A program made the translations under genes and the position numbers. Shown piece by piece: positions 273 to 3,421 of a stretch of DNA of 64,000 bases (its first letter is position 1; each line of letters begins with the position of its first letter). The DNA comes from Anabaena subtropica FACHB-260 (GTDB lineage Bacteria; Cyanobacteriota; Cyanobacteriia; Cyanobacteriales; Nostocaceae): assembly GCF_014697105.1 (NCBI RefSeq), contig NZ_JACJRF010000009.1, positions 1 through 64,000 on the forward strand, written 5' to 3'. The notes beneath the pieces are model-generated. The model ran no database searches, was not told the origin of the DNA, and saw only the letters and a list, made by a program, of their open reading frames with translations.

Positions 273-710
273 ATGATGATAGATATCGCATCAATCGTTA
301 CATTTCTTGCACCCTATCTGCCATCTCTGCTAAATGTGGGTAGTAAAGTTGCAGAAGGTGCATATCAACAAGCCGGTGCAGATGGTTGGGATAAAGCCAA
401 GACTATTTGGGGTAAGCTACATCCTAAAGTAGAGGCGAAAGAAGCCGCCAAAGAAGCGGTTGGAGATTTAGCAGAGAATCCAGAGGACAAAAATTTACAA
501 ACTGTTCTGCAAGTGCAACTCAAGAAGATTTTGGATGTAGATACAACACTGGCTGAGGAAATAGCCAAAATTTTGCAAGCAACAAAATCTGATGATCGCT
601 CCGTTAATCTCAATGCTCAAGCTTATGATGAAAGTATACAGATTAATAAAGCAGGTGGCGTTGATAACTCAACCTATAACTTGACCAGAAATATCAACAG
701 CCCAAAGTAA
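273..710 (+). CDS. 145-aa N-terminal helical protein, probably the first domain of the following STAND ATPase
   Basis: This ORF starts ATGATG and encodes a 145-aa, mostly helical protein. It begins with a hydrophobic stretch (IVTFLAPYLPSLLNVG), continues with a charged Lys/Glu/Ala-rich region (about residues 45-110), and ends in a Asn/Gln-rich linker (about 112-145). Family knowledge: similar N-terminal segments occur in Nostoc upstream of or fused to NB-ARC/TPR proteins; I cannot name a Pfam family. The stop codon TAA (708-710) follows directly after CCCAAAG, and the -1 frame runs open into the NB-ARC protein. I infer that this is domain 1 of a longer protein made by frameshifting, or of a gene broken by a 1-base change. 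No clear Shine-Dalgarno sequence precedes the start. Confidence 0.7.
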   Translation: MMIDIASIVTFLAPYLPSLLNVGSKVAEGAYQQAGADGWDKAKTIWGKLHPKVEAKEAAKEAVGDLAENPEDKNLQTVLQVQLKKILDVDTTLAEEIAKILQATKSDDRSVNLNAQAYDESIQINKAGGVDNSTYNLTRNINSPK

Positions 711-776
711 CTAACTATATTGCTGTTTATGGTACTGCACAGCAAGAAATAGTCGAGTTGATAGAAAGCAGTACCA
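701..776 (+). promoter_or_regulatory. Candidate -1 programmed ribosomal frameshift signal with H-type pseudoknot
   Basis: The heptamer CCCAAAG (701-707) is in the canonical X XXY YYZ register: zero-frame codons are CCA and AAG, slipped codons CCC and AAA. The zero-frame stop TAA is the next codon. Twelve bases downstream, 720-726 (TTGCTGT) pairs perfectly with 739-745 (ACAGCAA). The 9-mer at 730-738 (TGGTACTGC) pairs perfectly with 768-776 (GCAGTACCA). The second stem starts inside the first stem's loop, which gives an H-type pseudoknot with loops of 3, 0 and 22 nt. The pairings are seen in the sequence; function is inferred. The 12-nt spacer is longer than the usual 5-9 nt. Confidence 0.55.
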
Positions 777-3421
777 AGGCAGAATCGCCGGGGGTTCTCA
801 AAGCGGGGAATCCAGGTAAAAGTTTGGCTTACTGGCAAGGAAGAACCACAGAAATTGAGCAAATACAGCAATGGTTAACTGATAACAATACCTTTTTAAT
901 TGGTATAGAAGGCATCGGTGGTACAGGTAAATCAACGCTGGCGACGAAGATTTATGATGAAATTGCAGGTTTCCCTAAGCGATTTTGGGCTGATGTCAGT
1001 AATGGGGCAAGTTTTAGCGATTTAGCCAGACAAGTATTAACACAATTCGGCTTTCCTGTACCAGAAAAAGAAGTGCAGTTAGTAGAGGCGTTAGTTAGGT
1101 GCTTGCGTTCTGGGCAATTTTTACTGATTATTGACAACCTGGAAAGCTTATTACAACCTGATAGACAGTGGGGAAGTTTATTTTACGGCGACTTTTTCCA
1201 AACATGGGTGGAATCTGGTAGTAATAGTAAGGTGTTAGTCACCACCAGGGAAAGACCGGAATTAAAAGGCTTTGAGTGGCTACTCTTGAAAGGTTTACAA
1301 GTAGATGAAGGGGTAGCACTACTAACAGAATTGGGTATTAAAGGGGATTTAGGGGAGTTTGTCGAATTAGTAGATGGGCATCCCCTACTTTTGAGATTAG
1401 TAGCAGACTTATTAAAGGAAGAATATTCACAAGACCCGGATTTAAGCAGATTAGCAGATTTAGGCTTGGGTAATTTACAGCAGTTGTTAACAGATTCCCA
1501 AGTGGTAGGTATCCATCGCCGGGAAAATGTCGGGATGGTTTTGGTGTTGGATGCCAGTTTTAATAGATTGAGTGAGTTACAAAAGGCGTTATTGCTGAAT
1601 ATTAGTGTGTATCGTGGTGCGGTTGACAGTGCAGCAGCCGTGGCTATGTTGCCGGAAAATGCAGAACCAGAGATTGAGGGAGAATTGCGGAATCTGGTGA
1701 AGCGTTCTTTGTTGGTAGAAAAACTCAATGGTAAGCGGCGATTTGAGTTTCAGTCTGTGGTTTTGGAGTATGTGCGGTATAAAGCTGGCAATCAGACACA
1801 GGCGCATCAACGAGCTATTGATTATTATCGCTCAATTGCTAAACAACCACCTTGGACAACAAAAGACGATGTTAAAGAATACTTGGAAATCTTTGATCAC
1901 TTTTATCAGTTAAAAGATTATAACTCTGCCTTTGATAACATTTGGGTTTGCGATGATTTTTTGAGCTTGCGGGGTTATTACAATGACAAAGTGGAATTAT
2001 ATGGGCAGTTGGTCAGTAAATGGGAGGGAATTGGCGAGAGAAAAAATTGGAAATATAACGCTTCTCTCACCTCATTAGGTAATGCTTACTTTTCCCTGGG
2101 AGAGTACCAACGGGCGATTGAGTTCCACCAGCAGTCTTTGGAAATATCAAGGGAGATAGGCGAGCGCAATGGCGAAGCTGTTTCCTTAGGCAATTTGGGT
2201 AATGCTTACAACTCTCTGGGGCAGTACCAACAGGCAATTAAGTTCCACCAGCAGTCTTTGGAAATCAAAAGGGAGATAGGCGAGCGCAATGGTGAAGGTA
2301 TTTCCTTGGGAAATTTAGGCAGTTCTTACCGTTCCCTGGGACAGTACCAACAGGCGATTGAATTCCATCAGCAGTCTTTGGAAATCTTTAGAGAGACAGG
2401 TAATCGCAATGGTGAAGGTAGTTCTTTAAATTGTTTAGGTAATGCTTACTGTTCCCTGGGACAGTACCAACAGGCAATTGAATTCCATCAGCAGTCTTTG
2501 GAAATCTTTAGAGAGACAGGCGATCGCAGTGGTGAAGGTGATTCCTTACACAATTTTGGTAGTGCTTATTACTGCCTAGGGCAGTACCAACAGGCGATTG
2601 AGTTCTACCACCAGTCTTTGGAAATTTGTGGAGAAATAGGCGATCGCAGGGGTGAAGGTAATTCCTTACACAATTTAGGTGGTGCTTACCATGTTCTGGG
2701 GCAGTACCAACAGGCGATTGAGTTCTACCACCAGTCTTTGGAAATTTGTAGAGAAATAGGCAATCGCAGTGGTGAAGGTAATTCCTTAATCGGTTTGGGC
2801 AATGTGTACAGTTCTCTACGACAGTACCAACAAGCAATTGAGTTCCATCAGCAGTCTTTGAAAATCACACGAGAGATAGGCGATCGCAATGGTGAAGGTA
2901 ATTCCTTAATAAGTTTGGGTAATGCTTACGGTTCTCTGAAACAGTACCAACAGGCGATTGAGTTTCACCAGGAGTCTTTGGAAATCAAAAGGGAGATTGC
3001 TGATCGTAATGGAGAAGGTAAGTCCTTAATTGGTTTGGGAAATACATACAATTTACTTGGACATCACCAACAAGGAATTAATTTCTACCAACAATCTTTA
3101 GAAATTTTTAGGGAAGTAGGCGATCGCTATGGCGAAGGTCTTTCTTTAATGAATTTGGGCAATATTTATCAACGGTGTGGCAGGATTCAAGAAGGATTTA
3201 CTGCCTTGTATCAAGCCCAGCAGATTTTTCAAGAACTTGGGATTCCTTTTGAAGCAATGCTTTATCCTCAATGGCTAAAATCAGTAATAAACTTCGCTCA
3301 ACGTGGGCGGTTGCAATTTATTTTGTGTGTTATTTTTGGGCTGATAGCATTTCCTTTTGCTTTTATATGGCTGATTCTGCTTCTTTTATGGCGTTTAATG
3401 CGTTCCCAGTTTAAAACATGA
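758..3421 (+). CDS. STAND/NLR-type NB-ARC ATPase with TPR repeats and C-terminal membrane segment
   Basis: NB-ARC signalling ATPase. Counted from the TTG at 758, the P-loop is GIGGTGKST (52-60), Walker B is FLLIIDN (121-127), the sensor-like TTRE lies at 162-165 and a GLPL-like GHPL at 207-210. About nine TPRs of exactly 40 residues span roughly 440-805. A hydrophobic segment near 848-875 is followed by a short basic tail, so the protein may be membrane-attached. STAND proteins of this design act as ligand-triggered switches; some bacterial relatives are antiphage sensors, but the ligand here is unknown. No good start codon or ribosome-binding site is visible: the frame is open from 680 and lines up with the -1 frame of the upstream ORF. 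A fused product would be about 1049 aa. Confidence 0.85.
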   Translation: MIESSTKAESPGVLKAGNPGKSLAYWQGRTTEIEQIQQWLTDNNTFLIGIEGIGGTGKSTLATKIYDEIAGFPKRFWADVSNGASFSDLARQVLTQFGFPVPEKEVQLVEALVRCLRSGQFLLIIDNLESLLQPDRQWGSLFYGDFFQTWVESGSNSKVLVTTRERPELKGFEWLLLKGLQVDEGVALLTELGIKGDLGEFVELVDGHPLLLRLVADLLKEEYSQDPDLSRLADLGLGNLQQLLTDSQVVGIHRRENVGMVLVLDASFNRLSELQKALLLNISVYRGAVDSAAAVAMLPENAEPEIEGELRNLVKRSLLVEKLNGKRRFEFQSVVLEYVRYKAGNQTQAHQRAIDYYRSIAKQPPWTTKDDVKEYLEIFDHFYQLKDYNSAFDNIWVCDDFLSLRGYYNDKVELYGQLVSKWEGIGERKNWKYNASLTSLGNAYFSLGEYQRAIEFHQQSLEISREIGERNGEAVSLGNLGNAYNSLGQYQQAIKFHQQSLEIKREIGERNGEGISLGNLGSSYRSLGQYQQAIEFHQQSLEIFRETGNRNGEGSSLNCLGNAYCSLGQYQQAIEFHQQSLEIFRETGDRSGEGDSLHNFGSAYYCLGQYQQAIEFYHQSLEICGEIGDRRGEGNSLHNLGGAYHVLGQYQQAIEFYHQSLEICREIGNRSGEGNSLIGLGNVYSSLRQYQQAIEFHQQSLKITREIGDRNGEGNSLISLGNAYGSLKQYQQAIEFHQESLEIKREIADRNGEGKSLIGLGNTYNLLGHHQQGINFYQQSLEIFREVGDRYGEGLSLMNLGNIYQRCGRIQEGFTALYQAQQIFQELGIPFEAMLYPQWLKSVINFAQRGRLQFILCVIFGLIAFPFAFIWLILLLLWRLMRSQFKT
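2065..3180 (+). repeat. Tandem 120-bp repeats coding for identical-length TPRs
   Basis: About nine in-register 120-bp units recur, each containing a version of CAGTACCAACAGGCGATTGA and CAGTCTTTGGAAAT. Similarity is very high at the DNA level, not only in protein, especially between about 2220 and 2960. Several units carry a GGCGATCGC HIP1-type octamer at the unit junction. The identity suggests recent duplication or homogenisation by recombination. Confidence 0.9.

Follow-up and report, generated by a model that had tools for sequence, protein, structure and literature searches.

A probable programmed -1 ribosomal frameshift site between an effector-like protein and an NLR-like sensor in Anabaena subtropica, with likely recoding in related cyanobacterial loci

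The joining of two overlapping reading frames by the ribosome offers a way to make a short protein and a longer fusion from one gene. In this study, we have explored such an overlap in a 64,000-nt stretch of the genome of Anabaena subtropica FACHB-260 (contig NZ_JACJRF010000009.1, positions 1 to 64,000 of the forward strand; hereafter, the window), together with related loci from other cyanobacteria. Our comparisons make it very probable that the junction serves as a site of programmed -1 ribosomal frameshifting, at which mostly a small effector-like protein and, in the minority, its fusion to an NB-ARC/TPR sensor would be produced. Programmed frameshifting had been inferred in the original prediction from the junction itself, and it is now supported by the conservation of the site, by purifying selection on both frames and by equivalent heptamers elsewhere. 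On a wider scale, we consider it likely, although less firmly so, that recoding across the cyanobacterial phylum yields an immune effector and an NLR-like sensor from one gene, either by -1 frameshifting (at exchangeable heptamers) or by UGA/UAG readthrough with a covarying pseudoknot at 8 nt, and that the ribosome would thereby fix the ratio of the two products. Frameshifting and Bell/NLR pairs are each already known; the surprising part is the recoding in two modes.

The layout of the junction is the one first described from the window (Table 1). The heptamer CCCAAAG stands in the exact X_XXY_YYZ register for a -1 shift out of the effector ORF, which ends in AGC CCA AAG TAA (protein end ..NINSPK), so that the zero-frame stop is immediately 3' of the heptamer. 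The -1 frame is uninterrupted from position 680 to its own stop at 3419-3421, through the NB-ARC and TPR regions, and overlaps the zero frame by 28 nt. As had also been claimed, the sensor frame is without a good start: ATG and GTG are absent before the P-loop, and TTG occurs at 758 and 824. The heptamer motif by itself is weak, because CCCAAAGTAA alone would be expected by chance 0.3 times per window with both strands counted; the weight of the frameshift case comes from the relatives, not from the motif alone.

Table 1. Features of the junction and of the two reading frames, in window coordinates.
Feature	Position	Strand	Basis or remark
Zero-frame ORF, 145-aa small helical effector-like protein	273..710	+	ATG at 273 or 276
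Slippery heptamer C_CCA_AAG, -1 register	701..707	+	21/22 junctions; the other one has AAAAAAG
Zero-frame stop TAA after the heptamer	708..710	+	22/22, but TAA is part of the selecting pattern
-1 frame: linker, NB-ARC, TPR repeats, C-terminal hydrophobic segment	707..3421	+	Frame reading, Pfam
NB-ARC domain	845..1405	+	Pfam PF00931, residues 47-233 of the -1 product
TPR array of about nine tandem 120-bp units, 40 residues per repeat	2078..3163	+	Domain match and repeat analysis
Pseudoknot stem S1 (proposed), 5' arm; shared in part with the competing nested stem	720..726	+	7/7 pairs in 17/22 rows
Stem S1 3' arm	739..745	+	22-row alignment
Stem S2 5' arm	730..738	+	Covariation at pair 734-772
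Stem S2 3' arm	768..776	+	22-row alignment
Competing nested stem 5' arm, extends S2	723..728	+	6/6 pairs in 13/22 rows
Competing nested stem 3' arm	777..782	+	Predicted fold and 22-row alignment

The AlphaFold2 model of the effector (mean pLDDT 70) has five helices in residues 5-102, where pLDDT is mostly about 80-90 and where the first helix is hydrophobic by eye, followed from residue 106 by a tail that is disordered in the model (pLDDT mostly below 50). Comparison with Pfam, NCBIfam and PADLOC gave nothing reliable, and a fold search against the PDB returned 96 matches at E<=10 and none at E<=0.001; any activity given to the effector is a guess, because no reliable Pfam family and no solved fold matched it. 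Judged from its Pfam domains (NB-ARC, PF00931, E 1e-13; TPR array, PF13424, E 2.2e-87), the -1 product is a STAND (NLR-like) sensor of the NB-ARC/TPR type. The tandem units of the TPR array show 80% matches, and the copy number of such arrays may be variable between strains. A protein in which the two are fused is a plausible product, because two other loci (L150, L164) encode the effector domain in the same frame as TPR or WD40 repeats.

To place the junction among its relatives, the 145-aa protein was searched against 119 related genomes, of which 27 matched (the window's own included), and the start of the sensor against 217 genomes of the family, of which 210 matched, mostly with weak STAND relatives; the named relatives found include Nostoc, Anabaena, Dolichospermum and Aphanizomenon. 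We examined the junctions in 47 of the best sensor-start matches (L032-L078), related loci being taken as separate here and in all junction counts below. A heptamer and TAA in the -1 register, with an effector ORF in frame zero, are present at 22 of these junctions, from 21 genomes and 8 genera: CCCAAAG precedes the TAA in 21 and AAAAAAG in one (L072, at the same place), and since the 22 were selected by the heptamer-plus-TAA pattern, the invariance of the heptamer there carries no independent weight. What can serve as an independent check is how the remaining 25 loci are built. They comprise 22 loci whose sensor is a separate gene with its own ATG, and in many cases with a segment of the type MAEEPNPSN..NNIEMNVTASGDSKVTQVGQINAAEV, one locus (L073) in which a different N-terminal domain is in a single frame with the sensor, and two partial loci (L077, L078); a startless -1 sensor frame without a heptamer is found at none of the 47. 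We also looked for an uninterrupted single frame without the heptamer, and none of the 47 close relatives has effector and sensor in one frame.

Purifying selection is seen on both frames in the slippery class: dN/dS is 0.17-0.33 for each (dS 0.29-1.23; 443-616 sensor codons) in 13 of the 21 possible comparisons against the window. All 21 CCCAAAG loci use CCA for the slippery Pro, and the preceding codon, AGC or AAC, has C as its third base in every one; by comparison, 3 of 20 other conserved four-fold columns are invariant in the same loci. The sensor of L071 is truncated by a stop after 327 codons, and the effector copy of L102 (Nostoc sp. CMAA1605) looks interrupted, its ORF being without the usual N-terminus and preceded by a transposase-like ORF, with the junction intact.

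For the downstream RNA, the original prediction of an H-type pseudoknot is less well supported than first put. Both stems are present in the window, starting 12 nt after the heptamer (S1 with 7 bp, S2 with 9 bp), but the minimum-energy fold of positions 711-790 is not a pseudoknot: it combines S2 with a nested stem, at -21.6 kcal/mol (z -2.5; 3 of 200 shuffles equally good). S1 and the nested stem are alternatives, because the latter reuses part of the 5' arm of S1. In the alignment S1 is broken in 5 of 22 rows, one of which (L045) keeps the nested stem, and the pairing of S2 is reduced to 4-5 of its 9 positions in L043, L062 and L074. Pair 734-772 of S2 is A-U in 11 rows, G-C in 5, G-U in 5 and other in 1; the covariation rests mainly on this one pair and on related sequences, and the structure used for the count was derived from the window, which favours S1/S2. 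S2, which pairs well in the window class and covaries at one pair, is supported; the H-type pseudoknot with S1 is not uniquely supported, and some relatives have lost the structure. A structured stimulator is likely in the window class. At 7 of the 22 junctions (L041, L043, L044, L062, L068, L072, L074) an AGGAG lies 9-12 nt upstream of the heptamer, and these include all four loci with at most 4 of the 7 S1 pairs, a pattern that was noticed after seeing the data and may reflect kinship. A scan of 14 loci with Rfam gave an L10 leader in L135, away from the junction, as the sole match.

The slippery arrangement extends to a wider effector family. A different but related effector, 20-23% identical to that of the window, occurs on Xenococcus-like and Prochloraceae contigs (L124, L125, L126), and an order-wide search of 388 genomes with it gave a match in 68. 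From both effector groups 118 loci were retrieved and 113 placed, with no effector match in L172, L176, L190, L199 and L200. Counting an overlap only where a P-loop pattern lies downstream, a protein overlaps the effector ORF in the -1 frame at 19 of the 113 loci (5 window-type loci already counted and 14 new ones) and in the +1 frame at one, L024, where it has its own ATG; unfiltered, the counts are 21 and 1. The two loci so added are exceptions to the pattern: L027 has a 56-aa effector remnant and no heptamer, and L166 has two heptamers and an overlapping protein with its own ATG. At each of the 19 P-loop overlaps in -1 there is exactly one in-register heptamer. The 14 new junctions, which are not all independent (some are close relatives, and four are in one genome), carry AAAAAAG (8), GGGAAAG (3), CCCAAAG (2) or GGGAAAC (1) in overlaps of 13-40 nt, and 14 of 14 with a heptamer compares with 0.41 expected by chance at the background rate of the same effector ORFs. 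According to the accessible text of Atkins et al. (2016; PMC5009743), AAAAAAG, CCCAAAG and GGGAAAG are shift-prone in E. coli; these are three of the four kinds found and account for 35 of the 36 junctions. Slippage would presumably take place at a useful efficiency. One genome (G088) has four different effector-sensor junctions of the -1 class (L142, L162, L201, L217), and that of L142 leads into a sensor whose P-loop region is NACHT-like by eye.

In a second class of loci, the effector and the downstream frame are in phase. The frame is open for at least 100 codons past the effector stop in 48 of the 113 loci; we set aside four in which an ATG lies at most 17 codons past the stop (L021, L180, L186 and L205; the stop is UAA in two of these), and the 44 kept loci came to 40 distinct ones once duplicates of the first 54 nt were removed. 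The stops in the 44 are UGA (39) or UAG (5) and never UAA, the next base is C in 40, and common forms of the context are UGA CUA CAG CCG or UAG CUG AAG UCG; a P-loop pattern is found downstream in 39, and an ATG lies 21 codons past the stop in three (L151, L152, L156). A perfect 5-bp stem starts exactly 8 nt after the stop in 28 of the 40 distinct loci, versus 1.8 expected from shuffles. This stem has two-sided changes, clearest at pairs 2 and 4, and is present in all five extra in-frame loci that were picked by eye from a phylum search. Pairing of its loop with downstream sequence reaches at least 4 Watson-Crick pairs in 20 of 33, versus 11.9 with reshuffled partners, a level attained in 1 of 2000 reshuffles. 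The stem is absent in 12 of the 40. Two of these, L203 and L209, seem to have it in a displaced or imperfect form; the other ten are the UGA loci L145, L147, L148, L151-L153, L155, L156 and L177, most of which share another sequence downstream (CUGCUGGU, CUGCUGGG, or CUCUCUGGUAGCC and variants), and L216. L139 has a UGA junction as in its kin, in a frame that is not open for 100 codons. Taken together, stop identity, context and stem suggest that the in-frame loci are a probable stop-codon readthrough class with the same two products. The window's own genome also holds such a locus (L169, G000:C1:243730-246830), with its stop at UGA CUA CAG UCG and a stem 8 nt after it, so that one organism would use both modes of recoding. 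Selenocysteine at UGA is not supported: SelB was over the cut-off in 0 of 34 genomes (control, 2 of 14), a set that leaves out G183, G406 and G498, which also hold in-frame loci; UAG is also used as an in-frame stop.

Four other explanations of the window's junction have to be weighed. In the first, ribosomes would stop at the TAA and restart at a GTG, TTG or ATG about 40-50 nt downstream, no fusion would be made, and the heptamer would merely encode Pro-Lys. Such reinitiation is possible at 16 of the 22 loci, because an ATG, GTG or TTG occurs there at codons 15-18 of the sensor frame, and Bell/BASS pairs are described as adjacent or overlapping genes in the accessible text of PMC7889193. However, the candidate codon varies (TTG, GTG, ATG) and shifts in position, and in 6 of the 22 loci these codons are absent before sensor residue 40, with no start-like codon before residues 40-64, within or past the conserved linker. 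Reinitiation also leaves unexplained both the slippery heptamers at 14 junctions outside the window group and the preponderance of -1 overlaps (19, against one in +1) at the P-loop loci, and we regard it as unlikely. A second possibility is that the slippage is transcriptional instead of ribosomal, as might be thought from the A-rich heptamers (AAAAAAG, at 9 of 36 junctions). Polymerase slippage needs a run longer than that in CCCAAAG or GGGAAAG/C, the kinds found at 27 of the 36 junctions, and with the downstream RNA stem kept in most of the window class this possibility is highly unlikely. A third is an unusual start codon in the sensor frame at the junction (e.g. GUA or AUU), the heptamer being coincidental; it would draw on the GTA at 707-709 in 22 of 22 rows and the ATT that comes next in most, but 15 of the 22 have no AGGAG in the 24 nt that precede the heptamer, and it leaves unaccounted for the other 14 junctions, where heptamers of different kinds lie at different distances from the stop; this makes it most improbable. 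Finally, a one-base frameshift mutation or assembly error in a former single gene, now a broken copy, which was originally named as the main alternative and which gains from an overlap so short (28 nt) that one base would join the frames, has a negligible probability given the same arrangement in 22 loci of 21 genomes and 8 genera, the dN/dS of 0.17-0.33 in both frames, the lack of a single-frame effector and sensor among 47 close junctions, the other slippery heptamer at the same place in L072, and the excess of heptamers.

Based on these results, programmed -1 frameshifting is our preferred reading of the junction, and it allows us to propose a model. Most ribosomes would make the 145-aa helical protein and terminate at the TAA, and a minority would slip by -1 on C_CCA_AAG, aided by the downstream structure, to make an effector-NB-ARC/TPR fusion of about 1049 residues. 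The products would then be abundant free effector and a scarce effector-carrying sensor, and recoding plausibly sets the effector:sensor ratio. In the relatives with separate genes, the effector C-terminus (..NAYDQSTVKQVGKIEANEVSF) resembles by eye the N-terminus of the NLR (..ASGDSKVTQVGQINAAEV), as in the Bell-domain/BASS-motif NLR amyloid signalosomes of filamentous bacteria (Dyrka et al. 2020), which the accessible text of PMC7889193 describes as two-gene systems with matching motifs. The spacer between the separate genes contains short tandem repeats whose sequence differs between species (L003 2158-2432, L009 2022-2177 and L012 2548-2691, in oriented coordinates; also L014 and L015). As to the motif shared within Bell/BASS pairs, the sensor of the window has no N-terminal copy of the effector's C-terminal motif. 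We propose a scarce effector-carrying sensor because of this lack of a motif copy, unlike in the two-gene relatives; a sensor of the window class would instead receive the whole effector via recoding. Once activated, the sensor may oligomerise, and its fused effector copy and the shared tail could then serve to nucleate free effector or to recruit it; the probable site is the membrane, and the probable outcome a suicidal defence response. We infer this sensor-templated recruitment, including any amyloid formation or toxicity, by analogy. The relatives would reach the same two-product output by separate motif-matched genes or, apparently, by in-frame UGA/UAG readthrough. A bolder extension would be that translational stress during infection shifts the effector:sensor ratio.

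To our knowledge, there is no earlier recoding-controlled NLR family; if our reading is true, the loci described here would be the first, with a conserved readthrough pseudoknot in cellular bacterial genes. They would also provide a natural range of solutions for making one kind of protein pair: separate genes, frameshifting or, apparently, readthrough. Gene-finding programs are likely to cut such loci in two or to mis-annotate them, and sensors already described may for this reason lack the effector domain that belongs to them. Our literature search, whose coverage of subscription journals is incomplete, found nothing on programmed frameshifting with a bacterial NLR or on frameshifting with amyloid signaling, and the combination of frameshifting with Bell/NLR is not described in the accessible texts of PMC7889193, PMC8086366, PMC12261475, PMC3711429, PMC5009743, PMC7159879, PMC10907252 and PMC8195603. 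In the first of these, as far as accessible, the terms frameshift, readthrough and stop codon occur 0 times. The GeneTack survey of reading-frame transitions covered 1106 prokaryotic genomes, cyanobacteria included (PMC3711429), and its accessible main text (cluster tables aside) does not contain the terms NB-ARC, TPR, Nostoc, Anabaena or ATPase; surveys of this type could already contain the window's junction as an unnamed cluster. The subunit stoichiometry of amyloid/NLR signalosomes is named as a knowledge gap in the accessible text of PMC7889193. If our reading holds, this stoichiometry would be encoded in the gene itself, in the form of a recoding signal, and would thereby be directly measurable and changeable by synonymous mutation.

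The comparison with known systems brings out both what is familiar and what is distinct in these loci. In dnaX, -1 frameshifting yields the short form of one enzyme subunit. The window's junction is like dnaX in its heptamer classes, in the stop just after the slip site, in the likely downstream structure and, in some relatives, in the upstream AGGAG; the difference is that slippage in the window would extend an effector-like protein by an entire NLR sensor. In retroviruses, gag-pol is recoded either by frameshifting or by readthrough, the latter with a pseudoknot that lies 8 nt past the stop. The likeness to gag-pol lies in the short product and its fusion, in the two alternative modes of recoding among relatives and, for the in-frame class, in the stem 8 nt after the stop; here, however, the genes are cellular and bacterial, and encode an effector and a receptor, not virion proteins. 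The conflict systems with effector-associated domains in multicellular bacteria share the homotypic coupling of an effector to an NTP-dependent core, in cyanobacteria and actinobacteria, but couple through paired domains in separate proteins, as far as the accessible text of PMC7159879 describes them; in its main text, to the same extent, frameshift, readthrough, stop codon and recoding occur 0 times. The Bell/BASS pairs, on the accessible description in PMC7889193, resemble the window's pair in having a small helical protein with a hydrophobic N-terminal stretch, directly upstream of an NLR, in filamentous cyanobacteria. They differ in that the two proteins of the window would be joined by recoding, the NLR being without a motif or start of its own and the tail being changed.
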